Shown here piece by piece: positions 2,750 through 9,041 of a stretch of 64,000 nucleotides of DNA; within the stretch, counting starts at the first letter, position 1, and each line of letters starts with the position of its first letter. Position numbers and translations under genes: made by a program. This stretch comes from Microbacteriaceae bacterium PS02333 (GTDB lineage: Bacteria; Actinomycetota; Actinomycetes; Actinomycetales; Microbacteriaceae): assembly GCA_029959665.1 (NCBI GenBank), contig JASCOI010000005.1, forward strand, positions 1 to 64,000. Reading direction: 5' to 3'. The notes under the pieces are model-generated. The model was not told where the DNA came from and did no database searches. It saw only the letters and a list, made by a program, of their open reading frames with translations.

Positions 2750-3155
2750 CTGTTGCACCCCACCGCTCAGCGAATTTTGTCGTCCTGAACGCGAGCGCGT
2801 TCCTCTGCTTCGTCGTGGTGCGCGGGTCGCCGGGAGTGGACTTACCCAATCGGCTGGCAACACGGCGCGGGACTGCACTGTCAGCGGGGCGCAATCGCCT
2901 TTGCTGAGCAAGAACCGGTAGCTGTCAGCGTCGCCAACATAGCTGTTCGCTCGTTCCACTTGGCGCGGGGGCGCCTCCCGCTCAGCCGAAACCACCGTCA
3001 GCTTTGTGCATTCGGTGGAGGGCCGGGATGTACGGACTCTTCGGGGAATAGTGCCGTCGCCTCGGTCTCACCCGTACGGCATCTCGACAAGTGGCACTCT
3101 GGTCCTTACTATGAACAGCGTGGGGTGGCGGGTGCCGTCCTAGGAGGGTGGCGCG
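2750..3155 (+). other. Intergenic region before the unknown operon
   Basis: About 400 bases with no convincing gene. It must contain the promoter of the seven-gene operon that follows. A good ribosome-binding site (AGGAGG) lies just before the ATG at 3156. No strong hairpin or repeat was seen. Confidence 0.5.
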
Positions 3156-3737
3156 ATGACCGGCCGAGCAGATGACGTGCCGCAACGGCAACACGCCGCG
3201 GCAGGACACCGAGTAGCGCGAGTGCCTCTCACGCACTTCCGCGGCGAGCTTCCGAGTGACCTTCGGGAGCTGCACGTGGAAGTTCAAGAAGGCCAAGCCC
3301 TCATTCCAGGTCTCACGATGGGTATCGGCGCCCTCACTGTGCAGCGTTGGGATCCCGCCTACGCTGCCGACGGTTGGACGCTGTACGGCGCGGACCTCAC
3401 CCTCGACCAAGGTCACCCGTTCGGGTCGATGTTCTACCGCAACGACACCGACGACCGCGTGCTGCGTATCGGGGTGAAGTGGCATCCGCCGGTGCAGCAG
3501 CTGGAGTTCCCGGCCCTGCACCCGTCGAGACCGGAGCACACGTCGGACTGCACCGACGAGGAGGTCGCCGCGGTGGTGTTAGACGCGCGGAGTCGGATCG
3601 GCACTCTTGTCGCGGTCAATGCGCAGATCGGGTCGTTCGTCGCCACGACGGAGTCAGAGGACGCGATTCTCGACGCGTCCGGGCTCGGATTGGAGCGGCT
3701 GTCGGAAGACGACCCGCGGTTGGCTCGCGATGCCTGA
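3156..3737 (+). CDS. Hypothetical protein, first gene of the 3.1-7.5 kb operon
   Basis: 193 residues, no family recognised. The start is supported by AGGAGG about 8 bases upstream. The middle (around residues 80-107) reads LTLDQGHPFGSMFYRND followed by a hydrophobic strand. This matches the pattern hydrophobic-x-D-x(4)-x-G-x-x-[F/L]-x-[D/N] found in three short neighbours and in the N-terminus of the 287-residue neighbour, so the same small beta-rich domain may be present here. No signal peptide or membrane segment is seen, so it is probably cytoplasmic. It overlaps the next gene by 8 bases (GATGCCTGA), which suggests translational coupling. Function is unknown. Confidence 0.75.
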   Translation: MTGRADDVPQRQHAAAGHRVARVPLTHFRGELPSDLRELHVEVQEGQALIPGLTMGIGALTVQRWDPAYAADGWTLYGADLTLDQGHPFGSMFYRNDTDDRVLRIGVKWHPPVQQLEFPALHPSRPEHTSDCTDEEVAAVVLDARSRIGTLVAVNAQIGSFVATTESEDAILDASGLGLERLSEDDPRLARDA

Positions 3738-4044
3738 CCACCGTCCGCCGCGGTTCGAGCCGGTGCCGTTGCGGCTGCTGTCGTTGTCGGCGCAGTTCGA
3801 CGCGGTGATCTGGCCGACGGTGGCGGGAATGACGTTCACGAACTCCACCGGACCGAAGATCCTGCAACGCACCGTCAACGTCCGCACCAGCGAGGACGGG
3901 TGGGTGTTCACGCTCCTCAACGGAACGCGATTGACGGATCCTGCTGACCCGCTGCTGGAAGCAGCGACCCAGGTGATGGACGTGCTGACCGCACTGCGTG
4001 CGGCAGGCCGTGGTCCGGACGTGGTGGGGCCGGCTGATGCCTGA
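3730..4044 (+). CDS. Small hypothetical protein with the operon's shared domain
   Basis: 104 residues from the ATG at 3730, which overlaps the end of the preceding gene; a longer upstream frame exists but would run far back through that gene. Residues about 14-45 read LRLLSLSAQFD then VAGMTFTNS and a further strand, resembling the repeated small domain of this operon. A C-terminal helix (LEAATQVMDVLTALRAAG) follows. It overlaps the next gene by 8 bases. It pairs with the 346-residue AbiEi_2-like protein just as the short gene at 6254 pairs with the second such protein. The pairing suggests it binds or modulates that partner, but this is inference. No catalytic motif is visible. Confidence 0.72.
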   Translation: MPDHRPPRFEPVPLRLLSLSAQFDAVIWPTVAGMTFTNSTGPKILQRTVNVRTSEDGWVFTLLNGTRLTDPADPLLEAATQVMDVLTALRAAGRGPDVVGPADA

Positions 4045-5077
4045 CCGGCAGTGGGTGCAGGACATTCGCCACGAGCAGACGATCCTGTCGTTGCCGTTTG
4101 GGCTTGGCTACACGATCGACATCACCCAGACCCTCACCGCCCTCGCCGCTGCCGGAATGCCGGCACGGGTGGAAGCGTTCGACCGGCTCCGCTTCGACGA
4201 CGGCCGCACCGCGTTCCTCGCCACCCCGGACCCGACCACCACCATCACCGACGACGACGGTGATGGCGGCCGCGTGGACGACGTGATCCTCCTGCCCGGC
4301 GGGTCCGAAGGTGGGGTGCTGTCACTGGTCCGCCGATACCCAGACCTCGTGGTCGTGAACGGGAAGCGCGGGCGGGTGTGGGCGGACGGCCGGCAGGTGC
4401 ACGGCACGTCGATGCAGCGGGAAGCGACCCCGTGGTGGCGGACCGTGTTCGCGATCGCCCGCAGCATCGTCATGCACGGCGGCGGCACGCACGCCATCGC
4501 GGACCGCATCGGTGTTCCCTTCGAGGAGGTGCGCGCCGCGATGCCGGCCCTCGGCGTGCACGTGTTCCACACGCCTCTCGGGTGGGAAGCCACGGACCGA
4601 CTCGCACTGGTTGACTGGGCTCTCGCGGCGTACCCGGGATCCGGCGGGGCCCGCACCTGCTGGCGGCGCGACGACACCATCGACCAGCAAGCGGATGAAC
4701 TGCTTGCGCTGGGTGGGGTGATGTCGGACCGGTGGGCGGCGCAGCAGTCCGGCGTCCTCGTCTCCCCGGACCGGTTGACCGCGTTCTTTGCCGACCACCC
4801 CGACATGCAGGCGCTCGGCTACGAGCCGGCGTCGGCGAATGACGCGACGGTGAAGGTCATCATCCCGCAGGACACCACCATCCTCACCAGCGCTGAGGGG
4901 TGCTGTACGAACGACTTCATCACCGCGCATGTCCTCTACGAAGACGACTGGGTGGCCGCGAACACGGGTGCGGTGAACGGGTTGCGGCAGCTGCTGCACT
5001 TCCGATCCGACCTCGCCCACGACCTCCGCTGGCACCCCGGCAACAGCAGCGGCAACGATGACGGCGGGGCGGGCTGA
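4037..5077 (+). CDS. AbiEi_2-like antitoxin-type protein, copy 1
   Basis: 346 residues. The layout resembles AbiEi_2-type proteins (putative type IV antitoxin or transcriptional regulator). There is an N-terminal strand region (LPFGLGYTIDIT), then LVVVNGKRGRVWADGRQ at about residue 107, then a helix-turn-helix-like stretch (TVFAIARSIVMHGG to IADRIGVPFEEVRAAM). This is followed by LVDWALAAYPGSGG, then VMSDRWAAQQSG with SPDRLTAFFADH, and a C-terminal DFITAHVLYEDDW motif. The homologue at 6499 shares these landmarks in the same order (RVWIDGRQ, GLVDFAIACYPGPGG, EIITANTLLRADF). No AbiEii nucleotidyltransferase toxin lies nearby. The start overlaps the previous gene by 8 bases, and its stop overlaps the next ATG (ATGA). 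The family link is by motif layout only. Confidence 0.72.
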   Translation: MPDRQWVQDIRHEQTILSLPFGLGYTIDITQTLTALAAAGMPARVEAFDRLRFDDGRTAFLATPDPTTTITDDDGDGGRVDDVILLPGGSEGGVLSLVRRYPDLVVVNGKRGRVWADGRQVHGTSMQREATPWWRTVFAIARSIVMHGGGTHAIADRIGVPFEEVRAAMPALGVHVFHTPLGWEATDRLALVDWALAAYPGSGGARTCWRRDDTIDQQADELLALGGVMSDRWAAQQSGVLVSPDRLTAFFADHPDMQALGYEPASANDATVKVIIPQDTTILTSAEGCCTNDFITAHVLYEDDWVAANTGAVNGLRQLLHFRSDLAHDLRWHPGNSSGNDDGGAG

Positions 5078-5352
5078 TGCTGCAACTGCTGTCACTCACG
5101 CTTGCCTACGACGACACCCGGTTCTTCGGCTCCGTCATGTTCACCGACCCGGACCAGCGTGAAGAGAAGCCGGCCGTGGTCCTCATCGATCACGCCGACG
5201 AGTCGCCCTGGTTCCGTCTCATCAACGTCGAGCCGAACCGGCAGGACGCGTCGGTGTCGGAGATGGTCGAAGCGAAGCGGATCATGCGGTTCCTCCTCCG
5301 CTACACACCCGACCGCATCGGCCGCACCACCGCCGAATTCCCCAAGTCCTGA
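5077..5352 (+). CDS. Small hypothetical protein with the operon's shared domain
   Basis: 91 residues, starting in an ATGA overlap with the previous stop. The N-terminus LQLLSLTLAYDDTRFFGSVM followed by FTDPD is the clearest example of the small repeated domain. Compare LVSLHLSNDRILWGHVLLED in the next protein and LFLLNIAFDVTGVHGHVFF in the gene at 6254. The rest predicts strands and a C-terminal helix (VSEMVEAKRIMRFLLRY). No known fold or catalytic residues are recognised. A 41-base gap with a purine-rich GGAGG separates it from the next gene. Being cotranscribed with two AbiEi_2-like proteins, it may be part of a multi-subunit complex, which is speculation. Confidence 0.75.
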   Translation: MLQLLSLTLAYDDTRFFGSVMFTDPDQREEKPAVVLIDHADESPWFRLINVEPNRQDASVSEMVEAKRIMRFLLRYTPDRIGRTTAEFPKS

Positions 5353-5393
5353 CCCGACCTGCCCGCGCCCGTTCTCTCTGGAGGTTCCCGCTC

Positions 5394-6257
5394 ATGCAAC
5401 GTCTGGTGTCCCTGCACCTCTCGAACGACCGGATCCTCTGGGGGCACGTGCTCCTCGAGGACACCGACAATCCCGACGCCGGCCTGACGCAGATCCTCGT
5501 CCGTCCGGTCGATAAGGAGCCCGGGTACGAGCTCTACGACAACACCAACACGGTCCTGTCGGACCTGACGGTGCCGGCGGTGCGGGAGGCGCACCGGATC
5601 GTGCAGACCCTCCTTATCCCCGCCTCCGAGATCGCGAAGCGGGAGAAAGCGGTGCGGGCGGTGATCCACTCGGGCTACTTGGAAGGGTTCCCGGACGACA
5701 TGCCGTGGCAGTCGCAGCTGTGGATGTACGCCCGCGGGGAAGTCACCCGCGAACAGCTCAGCGCGTACGCCGATGAAGGCCGACAGATCCCCCGCCAACC
5801 CGACCACTCCGCCGTCGGCCCAGCAGACATCCCCGAGGACTGGTGGCAGACCACCCAGGCCCGCATCCGCCGGCACCTGCTCGACTCGACCCTCACCGAA
5901 GCAGAAGCCGCTGCCGCCCTGCAGATCAGCATCGACGACGTCGGTGAGCTGTTCGAGGCGAACCGGCTGCTGAGCTTCGACCTCGACGGGGAAGAACGCA
6001 TCCCCGACTGGCAACTGGTCAAGCCCGCGCTCCCCGAGCTCGGCGACCCGTCCAGTCTGTTACCCGGCCTCGACGTCCTCCTCGCGGCAGCACCGCAGCC
6101 GCTCCTCGACGCCGCAGCGATGACCGAGTTCATGACCACACCCCTGGACTTCCTCAGCGTCGACGACGAACCACTCACGCCACTGACCTGGCTGCTGCAA
6201 GGCCGGCCCCTCACGACGATCATCGCCCTGTTCCGCGGACGGCATTGGCGCCCATGA
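5394..6257 (+). CDS. Fusion of the shared small domain to an HTH/MbcA-Xre antitoxin-like region
   Basis: 287 residues. Residues 1-80 repeat the small domain (LVSLHLSNDRILWGHVLLED). A linker with LWMYARGEVTREQLSAYA follows. Residues about 165-210 look like a helix-turn-helix plus wing (LTEAEAAAALQISIDDVGELFEA, then FDLDGEERIPDWQLV). The last 50 residues (MTEFMTTPLDFL, then PLTPLTWLLQGRPLTTIIALF) resemble the toxin-binding tail of MbcA/ParS/Xre antitoxin-like proteins, in which a 'W-L-hydrophobic-G-D/R-x(n)-V/I' end follows a helical pair. It is preceded by GGAGG and ends in an ATGA overlap. The call is from architecture; no RES or other toxin gene is adjacent. Confidence 0.7.
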   Translation: MQRLVSLHLSNDRILWGHVLLEDTDNPDAGLTQILVRPVDKEPGYELYDNTNTVLSDLTVPAVREAHRIVQTLLIPASEIAKREKAVRAVIHSGYLEGFPDDMPWQSQLWMYARGEVTREQLSAYADEGRQIPRQPDHSAVGPADIPEDWWQTTQARIRRHLLDSTLTEAEAAAALQISIDDVGELFEANRLLSFDLDGEERIPDWQLVKPALPELGDPSSLLPGLDVLLAAAPQPLLDAAAMTEFMTTPLDFLSVDDEPLTPLTWLLQGRPLTTIIALFRGRHWRP

Positions 6258-6499
6258 GCAGCCGGCCGGACCTGTTCCTCCTCAACATCGCCTTCGACGT
6301 CACCGGCGTGCACGGGCACGTGTTCTTCCGCGACCCACCCAGCACCGTGCTGCGGCAGGTCACCATCCGCAGCACCGACACCGGCAACATCTGCGAACCA
6401 GCCCACAGCGACACCCGCGATGGGTGGGAACCGTTCCTCGAAGAGACCCGATGGCTCATCGCCCTCACCCGACCCGACGCGCCGGAAGGACGCAACTGA
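6254..6499 (+). CDS. Small hypothetical protein with the operon's shared domain
   Basis: 81 residues from the ATG at 6254, which overlaps the previous stop (ATGA); an in-frame TTG at 6245 is less likely. Residues 6-35 (LFLLNIAFDVTGVHGHVFFR, then DPPS) show the repeated small-domain pattern with the invariant-looking D and G positions. A C-terminal helix (WEPFLEETRWLIALTR) follows, like that of the 91-residue paralogue. Its stop overlaps the next start (TGATG), so it is probably coupled to the second AbiEi_2-like protein. Function is unknown. Confidence 0.72.
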   Translation: MSSRPDLFLLNIAFDVTGVHGHVFFRDPPSTVLRQVTIRSTDTGNICEPAHSDTRDGWEPFLEETRWLIALTRPDAPEGRN

Positions 6500-7527
6500 T
6501 GACGCCTGGGCTCGAATGGGTCGCCGCCGCGTACTCCGGCCGGCCGCAGATCACGATGCCGTACGGGCTCGGCGACACCACCGACCTCACCGATGCGCTC
6601 TCCGTCCTGAAGCTCGCCGGGCTTCGCGCGATCGTCGAGTCGCACGACACGATCCGCCTCGCCGACGGCCGTCGTGCACGCTTCCCAACACTCACCCAAC
6701 GCCCCCGCGACGACGACCCGAACGAGGCGGAACTGCTCCTGCTGACACCACGCACCGTCACCGCGACACAAATCGCGCTCGCGGAACAGACGACGACGGT
6801 GCTGCTGGTCGACGTCGACCGGCGCCGCGTCTGGATCGACGGCAGACAAGCCCTCGGGACGAAGGAGAGGTGGAAGGACGCCGCACCCATCTACGTCACC
6901 TTTGCCGTCGCGCGGATGCTTGCCGTCAACGGTTCCACCTTCGACCGGCTCGTGAGGGCAGGGCTGACTGCTGGCCAGGTGGATGACGCGCTCGCGCGCC
7001 TCGGGAAACGTGTGCACCGCACCGACATCGGTTGGGAGTCGCGGCAGGTCGGTGGGCTCGTGGACTTCGCGATCGCCTGCTACCCCGGACCAGGCGGCGT
7101 CAGGACCCGGTGGACTTCCGACCTGCCGCTCGTCGAGCAGGCGGAACATCTCATCAGCGCCGGCTGCCGCATCTCCGGCCGCGCCATCTCCGACCGCCCC
7201 GGCTACCCCGCCATCAGCAAACGCGAGATGCCGTACCGGCTCGTCGCGTTCGCTGAGGAAGAAGTCGACATGGCGGCACTCGGGTTTGAACCCGACACGA
7301 TCGGCTTCTCCGGCGCCGAACTCATCCGACCAGCGGACCCCACCATCTTCCTCACCGCAGCCGCCGCCGGATACCGGGACCGGACCGACGAAATCATCAC
7401 TGCAAACACGCTCCTCCGCGCCGACTTCCGCAACGACGACGACGCGGCTTCGTTGCAAGAAGTACGGGATCAGCTGCAGTTCCTCGCCGACACCGGATAC
7501 GACCTCCGCCACAATCTGCCGAGCTGA
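6499..7527 (+). CDS. AbiEi_2-like antitoxin-type protein, copy 2
   Basis: 342 residues, a diverged paralogue of the protein at 4037. Shared landmarks in order are MPYGLGDTTDLTDAL, VDVDRRRVWIDGRQALGT, a helical stretch (FAVARMLAVNGSTFDRLVRAG), GLVDFAIACYPGPGGVRTRW, CRISGRAIS, YRLVAFAEEEVDMAALGFEPDT, and a terminal EIITANTLLRADFRNDDD helix. The order matches AbiEi_2-type wHTH-plus-nucleotidyltransferase-like antitoxins, as inferred for copy 1. It is the last gene of the operon and is followed by a convergent remnant gene. Having two diverged copies in one operon, each behind a short gene, suggests duplication and specialisation. No AbiEii partner is present. Confidence 0.72.
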   Translation: MTPGLEWVAAAYSGRPQITMPYGLGDTTDLTDALSVLKLAGLRAIVESHDTIRLADGRRARFPTLTQRPRDDDPNEAELLLLTPRTVTATQIALAEQTTTVLLVDVDRRRVWIDGRQALGTKERWKDAAPIYVTFAVARMLAVNGSTFDRLVRAGLTAGQVDDALARLGKRVHRTDIGWESRQVGGLVDFAIACYPGPGGVRTRWTSDLPLVEQAEHLISAGCRISGRAISDRPGYPAISKREMPYRLVAFAEEEVDMAALGFEPDTIGFSGAELIRPADPTIFLTAAAAGYRDRTDEIITANTLLRADFRNDDDAASLQEVRDQLQFLADTGYDLRHNLPS

Positions 7528-7541
7528 CGGTGCGAGATCGA

Positions 7542-7829
7542 TCAGGTCGGAGTCGTACCAACCTGCCCTCGCTGCTTCACCGAAGTGCGCCAAACCCAAG
7601 CCGCCGGCTTGGTGTCACCGCGACCCGCCGTGTCCGGGTCGATCGCCTCGACGATGGCGGATCCGTCCGACCGAGTGCCGGCGCTCAGGAGTGACGAATC
7701 CACCGTCACGCACACCAGAGCCGCGCCGAACCGCTGCGCGAACTGCGCAGCTACTTCGACCACGGCGCAGACCTGCTCGTGCTGCACTCCGACGACGATC
7801 ACCGTCGGCCTCGTCTGGTCATCGTTCAT
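7542..7829 (-). pseudogene. Truncated universal stress protein (UspA-like)
   Basis: 95 residues. Residues 8-70 (PTVIVVGVQHEQVC, VVEVAAQFAQRFGAALVCVTVD, IVEAIDPD) match the first beta-alpha-beta unit of a UspA-type universal stress protein, the kind with a conserved IDPD segment. The family is normally 140-160 residues and ends with a G-x(2)-G-x(9)-G-S/T nucleotide loop. Here that half is missing, and the frame ends in unrelated residues next to the end of the upstream operon on the other strand. GGGAG precedes the ATG at 7829. Probably a gene cut when the neighbouring operon arrived. Confidence 0.55.
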
Positions 7830-8068
7830 CGCAGCTCCCTACCTCAGGCGCGCGGAAGCGCGACCATCTGAGATAGGGACTGTTGTGGACGGATGTCGAG
7901 GTTGGGTCCGGCAAGCCCCACTGCCGGGTCTGACGACGTCATCAGTATGCGCCCACCGGCCCGTGGGCGCCATCACCGGTCGCATCGCCTGCGAGCCCGC
8001 GAGCGCAACGACGTCGCAATAGTCATCAGCTTGCAACGAGCTGGCCACGATCCGGTATGTTCCTAGTT

Positions 8069-8593
8069 ATGACCACGTCCGACTCACTCTTGGCGTTCGT
8101 TGCGTGGGCGCGTCTTCGGGACGTCCCCCGCGTCGGCTGGCCGGTGTCATTTCTTCCCCCGCCCGGAGTGCATGTTCGGGCGACGGAACGGAACTCGACG
8201 CTGAATGTCTTCGTCACCAGTGACGACAGTGACGTGGAGTGCCTCGCTCGGCTCGACCTCGAAACTCGGGAGGTGGTCGCCAGCCCGGCCGGGGCGGCTC
8301 ACCGTCGACTGAGGCGCCTTGCGTTGCGGTTCGTCGCTGACCGAAACGCATACGACCGCCGTTGCGGGCTGGACACCACGCCGCCACCGCCGGACTTCAC
8401 GCTCACTGACGACGCTACGTGGTCGGATATGCAACTCCTCGCCATCGTGACGAAGGGCCTGTGGTACCCGCCGGACCCTGACCTGGAAGACGCGCGCACC
8501 CGCCTACATTCAATAGCTCTCGCGACACGGTTCAACCGCTATGCCGCTGCACTTCGGCAGGAGAGAGAGTATCCGCCTACTGTCTCCGGCTGA
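8069..8593 (+). CDS. Hypothetical protein
   Basis: 174 residues from the ATG at 8069; an ATG 12 bases upstream (8057) is also possible. No family is recognised. It is soluble, Arg/Asp rich, with a beta-rich N-terminal half (VHVRATERNSTLNVFVTS, then CLARLDLETREVV) and a helical C-terminal half (RLRRLALRFVADRNAYD; LHSIALATRFNRYAAAL). No signal peptide is seen. It stands alone between a truncated UspA gene and a minus-strand HTH gene. Function is unknown. Confidence 0.55.
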   Translation: MTTSDSLLAFVAWARLRDVPRVGWPVSFLPPPGVHVRATERNSTLNVFVTSDDSDVECLARLDLETREVVASPAGAAHRRLRRLALRFVADRNAYDRRCGLDTTPPPPDFTLTDDATWSDMQLLAIVTKGLWYPPDPDLEDARTRLHSIALATRFNRYAAALRQEREYPPTVSG

Positions 8594-8759: not shown

Positions 8760-9041
8760 TCACTGTCGAGAACGAACCGGCCACAGTTGCGCATCAAGAC
8801 CATCTTCGAGGCGAGCAATGGTGTGAAGGTCAGGCCACGCGTTGCCCGTGAGGACCCGTTGCAGCGTCACGTGTCCGATGCCAGCGTCAGCAGCCACTTC
8901 GCGAAGCGTCCGACCCGCCATTGCAGCGCGAAGCTTGATGACAAATTGCCGGTCCACCTCCGCGAACCGGTCCGAGGATGGGCGCTCCGGCCAGGGAGCA
9001 GCAGTGAGCTCTGACGGCAGTGCTCGCGTAGGTCGACCCAT
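8760..9041 (-). CDS. Small XRE-type helix-turn-helix protein
   Basis: 93 residues from the ATG at 9041 (MGRPTRALPSEL); a longer frame upstream lacks coding character. The C-terminal half is a Cro/C1-type HTH: FVIKLRAAMAGRTLREVAAD followed by AGIGHVTLQRVLTGNAWPDLHTIARLED. The A-G-I-G turn and the R-V-L-x-G-x-x-W-P-D recognition-helix ending are typical of small actinobacterial antitoxin or phage-repressor-like DNA-binding proteins. It lies directly downstream of the defence-like operon on the same strand, but about 90 bases beyond the dGTPase stop. It may regulate that operon, which is inference. Confidence 0.7.
   Translation of the reverse strand: MGRPTRALPSELTAAPWPERPSSDRFAEVDRQFVIKLRAAMAGRTLREVAADAGIGHVTLQRVLTGNAWPDLHTIARLEDGLDAQLWPVRSRQ

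Follow-up and report, generated by a model that had tools for sequence, protein, structure and literature searches.

A seven-gene operon of Curtobacterium that brings together AbiEi_2-like and VbhA-like antitoxin homologues without a recognisable toxin

The first 64,000 nucleotides of contig JASCOI010000005.1 (assembly GCA_029959665.1, Microbacteriaceae bacterium PS02333), referred to here as the window, contain seven genes, g1 to g7, which lie on the + strand between positions 3156 and 7527 and form one tightly coupled unit. The host is a Curtobacterium genome (G000; 4.17 Mb in 322 contigs, the operon being on contig C278). None of the seven proteins could be recognised as a toxin; g3 and g7 appear to be distant homologues of AbiEi_2-type antitoxins, and g5 carries what we recognise as a VbhA-type Fic-antitoxin module. 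Because two kinds of antitoxin occur together with no recognisable toxin, the operon may serve to disarm the toxins of other elements rather than act as a toxin–antitoxin (TA) pair of its own. We assign a probability of about 35% to this reading, in which a mobile multi-antitoxin cassette without a toxin of its own would neutralise toxins from other elements. A toxin-less cassette derived from antitoxins accounts for the data at least as well as the undescribed defence or TA-like system proposed in the initial annotation of this DNA.

The genes g3 (4037–5077, +; 346 amino acids (aa)) and g7 (6499–7527, +; 342 aa) encode paralogues with 34–35% identity. Rather than a fold unrelated to AbiEi or helix-turn-helix (HTH) proteins, the structure model of g7 shows a winged helix at residues 131–181 (6889–7041, +), supported by matches to MarR-type proteins; the winged helix of g3 was assigned by homology to g7. 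In both proteins this element is followed by an AbiEi C-terminal domain according to the model and alignments, the label of the C-terminal domain resting on the alignments. Foldseek returned no match to the g7 model at E ≤ 0.001, and a structural second look listed winged helices, of the MarR type and others, with a highest Z of 6.0 and no AbiEi structure among the matches listed. Sequence searches of the PDB with the g3/g7 profile and with the toxin profile described below gave chance-level matches only.

The relationship to AbiEi_2 emerges through intermediates. A family-wide search found relatives of g3/g7 in 38 of 398 genomes, spread over 18 of 85 genera, and in 12 of the 14 neighbourhoods fetched, the relative had an adjacent or overlapping gene resembling nucleotidyltransferases (NTases); the two without it were L076 and L079. 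In profile comparisons, operon g3/g7 matched the toxin-paired relatives at 100% (E 5.2e-42, 293 columns), and these in turn matched PF09952 (AbiEi_2) proteins at 97.7% (E 1.3e-12, 287 columns). The PF09952 proteins were collected from 23 of 246 genomes of the phylum, and 14 of the 25 places were used, those where a script found the frame whole. A three-row LysR-type winged-helix control reached 64% against the relatives (E 6.4e-5) over only 45 HTH columns, and 0.1% and 0.2% against PF09952 and g3/g7, respectively; unrelated control sets gave 0.6% and 0.1%. We take the homology of g3/g7 to AbiEi_2 over most of their length to hold transitively, at the superfamily level, because of the alignment length, since the winged-helix control reaches 45 HTH columns only; the direct comparison alone would not carry it. 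The AbiEi_2-like layout read from the sequence in the initial annotation is thus borne out by the profile chain and by the AbiEii-type neighbours of the 12 relatives, but not by direct comparison with PF09952, which is weak. In a tree, a branch (89/79; recovered in 90% of bootstrap trees) sets apart the 22 toxin-less rows, which are nested among toxin-paired rows; this suggests that the operon branch probably lost its NTase toxin once.

These comparisons used the following alignments. The operon set A3 (g3/g7, 38 rows) omits the C99 copies, the broken L014 (g7) and L031 rows, and the near-copies L018, L019 and L021 of g7 and L018–L020 of g3; the set of toxin-paired relatives A9 (15 rows) omits L084 and L085; A8 is the PF09952 set; and A7 (9 rows, four of them short at the start) omits L080, L081 and L084. 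L080 and L130 are the same plasmid.

The partner gene of the relatives carries, by eye, GG, DxD, K-x6-R and D motifs like those of AbiEii, as compared with the description in the part of PMC3985639 available to us. Partners matched PF08843 weakly in five of nine cases and the PADLOC AbiEii model in one of four, and in profile comparison the partner gene aligned over 172 columns with the genes next to PF09952 proteins (97.7%, E 1.6e-12; 0.08–2.9% in three controls). Searched with two profiles, the 27 stretches with operon or g7-like genes contained no NTase, compared with 18 of 19 control stretches that did; the exception, L079, falls in the toxin-less group. The window genome gave no match to the partner NTase profile (PF08843 itself was not run on the genome), and of the 31 genomes of the genus that match the operon, 27 lack the partner family. 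The claim that no AbiEii is present was confirmed for the operon with Pfam, NCBIfam and PADLOC, and for its flanks with the NTase profiles. Across the genus, 8 of 66 genomes had NTase matches, four of them strong; among genomes searched for both, an operon match was found in 4/7 of the NTase genomes at E ≤ 0.001 and in 3/3 of the strong ones, against 31/60 overall, numbers too few to judge. The operon thus resembles AbiE type IV TA systems in the g3/g7 layout, in transitive near full-length homology and in relatives that adjoin an AbiEii-type NTase, and differs from them in lacking the toxin, in having two diverged antitoxins and five further genes, and in the lack of a direct Pfam match. Separately, the three conjugative Rhodococcus plasmids looked at (L128, L129 and L133) carry AbiEi_2-like/NTase pairs, which are annotated as hypothetical or have their NTase unannotated in the stretch; the L133 NTase lies in two frames.

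The second kind of antitoxin resides in g5 (5394–6257, +; 287 aa), an apparent antitoxin-derived fusion protein. Judging from profile, structural and motif matches, g5 carries a VbhA-type Fic-antitoxin module (5613–5786, +; residues 74–131) that the initial annotation overlooked. Its match to PF18495 (E 6.5e-5, 23.3 bits, cut-off 25.9) was the single, sub-threshold hit obtained when the seven operon proteins were searched against Pfam, NCBIfam and PADLOC, and a standalone VbhA relative reached 40.4 bits with the same model. A structural second look ranked VbhA (3zcb_B, Z 6.0) first, BiaA (5nh2_B, Z 5.5) fourth and a second BiaA chain (5eu0_B, Z 5.1) fifth; Foldseek gave no match to the g5 model at E ≤ 0.001, and a PDB sequence search with the g5 profile placed a repeat protein first (E 4.6e-4, aligned to the HTH region) and BiaA second (E 0.041). 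The module profile retrieved, in three Curtobacterium genomes, standalone VbhA genes of 63 aa that overlap a Fic gene of 197–200 aa (E 2e-16 to 8e-14), the Fic identity being given by PF02661 for L115 and by the motif for the other two genomes. The g5 module is 51% identical to the standalone VbhA of L115 over 61 columns. It contains the sequence SGYLEG (5670–5687, +; residues 93–98), which conforms to the SxxxEG Fic-inhibition motif (the SxxxE inhibition motif being taken from the accessible portion of PMC3667792), and S93, E97 and G98 are invariant in all 16 aligned operon copies of g5. This alignment (A4, 16 rows) omits the C99 copy, the broken L014, L015, L016 and L031, and the near-copies L018 and L019.

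The module is preceded in g5 by a beta-beta-beta-beta-alpha domain (5394–5618, +; residues 1–75), the confident part of the model, which is SpoVG/polo-box-like (Z 5.8 at best), and followed by a winged helix of the BldC/Xis/MerR type (5883–6029, +; residues 164–212; Xis 4j2n_A, Z 5.5; BldC 6amk_A, Z 5.1). Rv2175c_wHTH was matched by three g5 relatives at E 5.6e-4, 0.017 and 0.2, all below the cut-off, so that this label is weak. Residues 164–212 resemble the winged-helix proteins Rv2175c, BldC and Xis, with the difference that they form a mere domain of a larger fusion. The HTH initially predicted in g5 is real, though of the BldC/Xis/Rv2175c type, and the MbcA/Xre-antitoxin-like tail predicted beside it is unsupported: it matched no Pfam, NCBIfam or PADLOC model, the relatives give it no Pfam support, and the HTH resembles BldC/Xis. 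Compared with class I FicTA systems (VbhA–VbhT; BiaA–Bep), g5 has a VbhA module with SxxxEG in common but carries it internally, fused to the beta domain and winged helix, in an operon without a Fic gene.

Neither the operon nor its flanks contained a class I Fic gene. Across 27 stretches the Fic motif occurred once, in L006, in a protein that looked class II by eye, and the window genome had no match to the Fic protein of L115. That genome has three Fic genes, of which, by eye, two carry their own inhibitory motif and one is Doc-like; a cognate Fic in the window genome was therefore rejected. Within the genus, Fic matches over 80 bits were present in 8 of 66 genomes, four of them at 79–100% identity. 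Orphan VbhA genes were also seen on the Curtobacterium megaplasmids D40 (L131 2813–3168, a tandem pair) and pCPAA3 (L132 2968–3204), with no Fic motif in their 3-kb flanks.

The operon recurs as a unit. Scanning 84,980 species genomes by pattern yielded 24 loci, 23 of them under the label Curtobacterium and the other under 'Microbacteriaceae bacterium'; the near-copies L018–L021, ~99% identical, were counted as one event. The order g1-(g2)-g3-g4-g5-g6-g7 was identical in 21 of the 24, indicating strong co-occurrence of these genes in other genomes, and of the remaining three loci, one is cut by a contig end and two have a divergent g7-like gene. DNA similarity spans the operon in ~22 other loci, ends near the g1 start and the g7 stop and drops to 0–4 in most flanking bins, with a subset of loci sharing some right flank. 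Because homology stops near the operon edges while most flanks change, the operon behaves, on DNA comparison, as a 4.3-kb mobile cassette that is often multi-copy. C. pusillum AA3 has three copies, one with a broken g5, and the window genome has two (C278 and C99) plus a lone divergent gene (C263). Any g3/g7 match, fragments included, was found in 31 of 60 genus genomes, and in 26 of the 60 (about two fifths) the match was full-length at E < 1e-100, 24 of these having at least two matches. Viral contigs contained no g3/g7 relative, and phage records no g5 match.

Like cargo of Tn7-like transposons, the operon adjoins transposition genes, unlike such cargo in only three of the 21 named loci (L014, L016 and L023): L014 has TniB over the cut-off and rve and TnsA-like models below theirs, with homologues in L016 and L023. 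A Mu-transposase C-domain gene lies near the L011 operon and has a homologue in L013. Reshuffled versions exist as well. L076 has the g5 parts on separate genes together with an AbiEi-like gene, g1-like genes and small domains, and L079, L110, L111 and L112 are further arrangements of the wider family; none of these five loci contains an NTase.

The description of the operon as seven overlapping or nearly overlapping genes on the + strand is supported by the open reading frame (ORF) coordinates and by recurring junctions. From g1 to g7 the junctions are overlaps of 8, 8 and 1 bases, a 41-base gap before g5, and overlaps of 4 and 1 bases, and equal or near-equal junctions occur in most of the 22 other multi-gene copies. 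A sigma-70-like promoter, TCGACA-N17-TACTAT (3084–3112, +), lies just 5' of g1 (one found, against 0.2 expected in shuffles); given this site and the gene overlaps, we infer that g1 to g7 are transcribed as one unit. L012, L015, L017 and L022 also have a TACTAT box 5' of g1, with a −35 element that is similar or weaker (5/24 loci with the window); the rest do not. Median dN/dS (nonsynonymous to synonymous substitution ratio) against other copies was 0.20, 0.30, 0.23, 0.41, 0.22, 0.46 and 0.14 for g1 to g7, which indicates that all seven genes are under purifying selection.

In the proposed mechanism, the better supported steps are that g3 and g7 descend from AbiEi_2-type antitoxins of a toxin-paired family, with the NTase partner lost, probably once, that a VbhA-type module with SxxxEG is joined to a winged helix in g5, and that the operon moves as a unit and is retained by selection. 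AbiEi-like proteins would then counteract AbiEii-type NTase toxins, the VbhA module would sit in the active site of Fic AMPylases of class I, and g1 and the small domains may assemble these parts into a single complex with a further role in transcriptional regulation. The carrier would gain by anti-addiction, or by resistance to abortive-infection (Abi) or TA systems of competing plasmids, phages or the host. Candidate toxins for such a cassette occur in the genus, with close Fic homologues in 4/66 genomes and strong AbiEii-like proteins in 4/66. The idea of orphan antitoxins as anti-addiction modules has been published (PMC7354431, PMC11541004, as far as the excerpts of these papers go), and the operon resembles them as toxin-less antitoxin genes on mobile DNA, with the difference that the excerpts describe single genes, while here two unrelated antitoxin classes share a conserved seven-gene operon. 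According to the excerpt of PMC7354431, orphan antitoxins are common, and anti-addiction as a common use is still to be demonstrated.

Several observations weigh against a toxin-neutralising cassette. On the AbiEi side, none of the 38 g3/g7 members matched any AbiEi Pfam model at E ≤ 10, and the direct comparison of g3/g7 with PF09952 proteins gave 25.8% (E 7e-4, 202 columns), a level that a winged-helix match by itself can reach; the tree gives moderate support to a single toxin loss, with several long branches and an unsure exact placement. On the VbhA side, Z scores under 8 can arise by chance according to the structure tool's own note, and the g5 model is poor outside residues 1–75 (pLDDT, the predicted local confidence, 53), with most of the VbhA stretch under 50. 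The divergent operons L110, L111 and L112 lack the SxxxEG motif, and Fic inhibition is therefore not constant across the wider family. Among genomes searched for both, an operon match was found in 4/7 Fic genomes (>80 bits), compared with 31/60 overall, and the presence of Fic or AbiEii was discarded as a predictor of the operon, there being no clear association. Finally, a pure antitoxin cassette would have no obvious need for g1 and the small domains.

The first alternative, which we regard as possible though on balance improbable, is an unrecognised TA or abortive-infection system in which g1, g2, g4, g6 or the assembled complex would act as the toxin, held in check by the VbhA and AbiEi-like parts. 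The overlapping genes and the patchy, mobile distribution, as for defence genes, are consistent with this, and Tn7-like transposons carry TA and Abi cargo, as stated in the part of PMC8649781 consulted. g1 (3156–3737, +; 193 aa, fold unassigned) is present in every multi-gene version read, although G051, with g3 and g5, yielded no g1 in the family search. Across divergent members, g1 shows by eye no conserved catalytic set, and g1 as an enzyme was rejected on this ground. g2 (3730–4044, +; 104 aa), g4 (5077–5352, +; 91 aa, a small beta-alpha domain) and g6 (6254–6499, +; 81 aa, a small domain of the g4 type), as well as g1, have no match in Pfam, PADLOC or NCBIfam. In profile comparison, g4 is paralogous to the N-terminal domain of g5 (96% probability) and to g6 (73%), and g2 is weakly related to g4 (25%), suggesting that a single small domain recurs as g4, as g6 and in the N-terminal part of g5, perhaps also in g2; g4, g6 and this part of g5 are thus an unlikely set of separate toxins. 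The optional g2 is present in 13 of the 21 named operon loci and is bounded by an 11-base direct repeat, GATGCCTGACC (3729–3739 and 4036–4046). Where g2 is missing, g1 runs into g3 with the same overlap of 8 bases, L029 being the one exception; with this overlap and the bounding repeat, g2 looks like an in/out cassette.

A second alternative, which we consider rather unlikely, is that repurposed antitoxins form a transcriptional regulatory complex of mobile elements, in which the small domains and the three winged helices (g3, g5, g7) would bind DNA or control the element and no toxin would be neutralised. Three winged-helix proteins in one operon (g3 by homology) would suit such a role, as would the recurrent neighbours d1 and d2 described below, the absence of the VbhA motif from divergent versions, and the autorepressor activity of AbiEi reported in the seen part of PMC3985639. 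By contrast, DNA binding would not require the SxxxEG motif, which is invariant in 16/16 Curtobacterium copies, and no operator region shared across loci was seen 5' of g1, homology ending near the g1 start.

A more ambitious version of the cassette reading, which we think quite unlikely, is a 'pan-antitoxin' machine, in which the assembled complex would disarm AbiEii-type NTases and Fic AMPylases, two toxin classes of unrelated chemistry, and let the carrier escape plasmid addiction and abortive infection. To our knowledge, no multi-class, multi-subunit anti-toxin system has been reported, and none was among the papers listed by the full-text searches. That the operon is a functionless, decaying remnant of fused TA systems is very improbable: broken frames in 4/21 named copies and g7 tail remnants 3' of some copies would agree with decay, but purifying selection (dN/dS 0.14–0.46 for all seven genes) largely refutes it, and gene order and junctions are conserved and full-length matches at E < 1e-100 occur in 26/60 genus genomes.

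Such an operon was not recognisably described in the full-text literature, at the level of titles and abstract starts among the matches listed, with preprints and most subscription journals outside this coverage. It joins two unrelated antitoxin lineages in one conserved operon that moves and has probably lost its toxin, and the anti-addiction question is therefore directly testable with named toxins from Curtobacterium itself. Should a small gene turn out to be a toxin instead, a new TA type would be at hand; either outcome would explain how AbiEi homologues persist without AbiEii.

The broken frames affect g3, g5 or g7 in L014, L015, L016 and L031. A second copy of the last 120–165 bases of g7 lies 0.9–3.4 kb 3' of the intact operon in L018 (12388–12509), in L025 (14954–15119) and in the near-copies L019–L021; these are likely remnants of an older operon copy at the same site. 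The flank DNA after them is partly common to the right flank of other loci.

Around the operon, no housekeeping flank is conserved across loci. In the window, the operon is preceded by what we take to be a gene for a transporter like those of the major facilitator superfamily and followed by d1, d2 and, presumably, a dGTPase-like gene. d1 (8057–8593, +; 178 aa, no Pfam match) is a recurrent neighbour and possible accessory gene, with seven homologues beside operon versions including the window, two of them in another genus. d2 (8763–9038, −) encodes an XRE-type HTH protein (PF13560/PF01381) and has homologues in L006, L011, L013 and L022. The right flank recurs at window positions 7542–7829 (−), where the ORF is by eye an apparent start of a universal stress protein, without a Pfam match; this DNA is common to the window and L011, L018–L021 and L030, and further right-flank DNA is shared among L025, L026 and L029 and by these with L011. 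The recurring flank at 7542–7829 is a possible insertion hotspot. A 190-aa protein with a HEPN-like R..HH..H stretch is encoded 3' of the second operon copy in L006 (9340–9912); it was set aside, since it occurs once. A further small protein family adjoins operon versions in L022 (11719–12042), L034 (9628–10206), L110 (8243–8806), L017 (11611–11922) and L111 (4470–5591).

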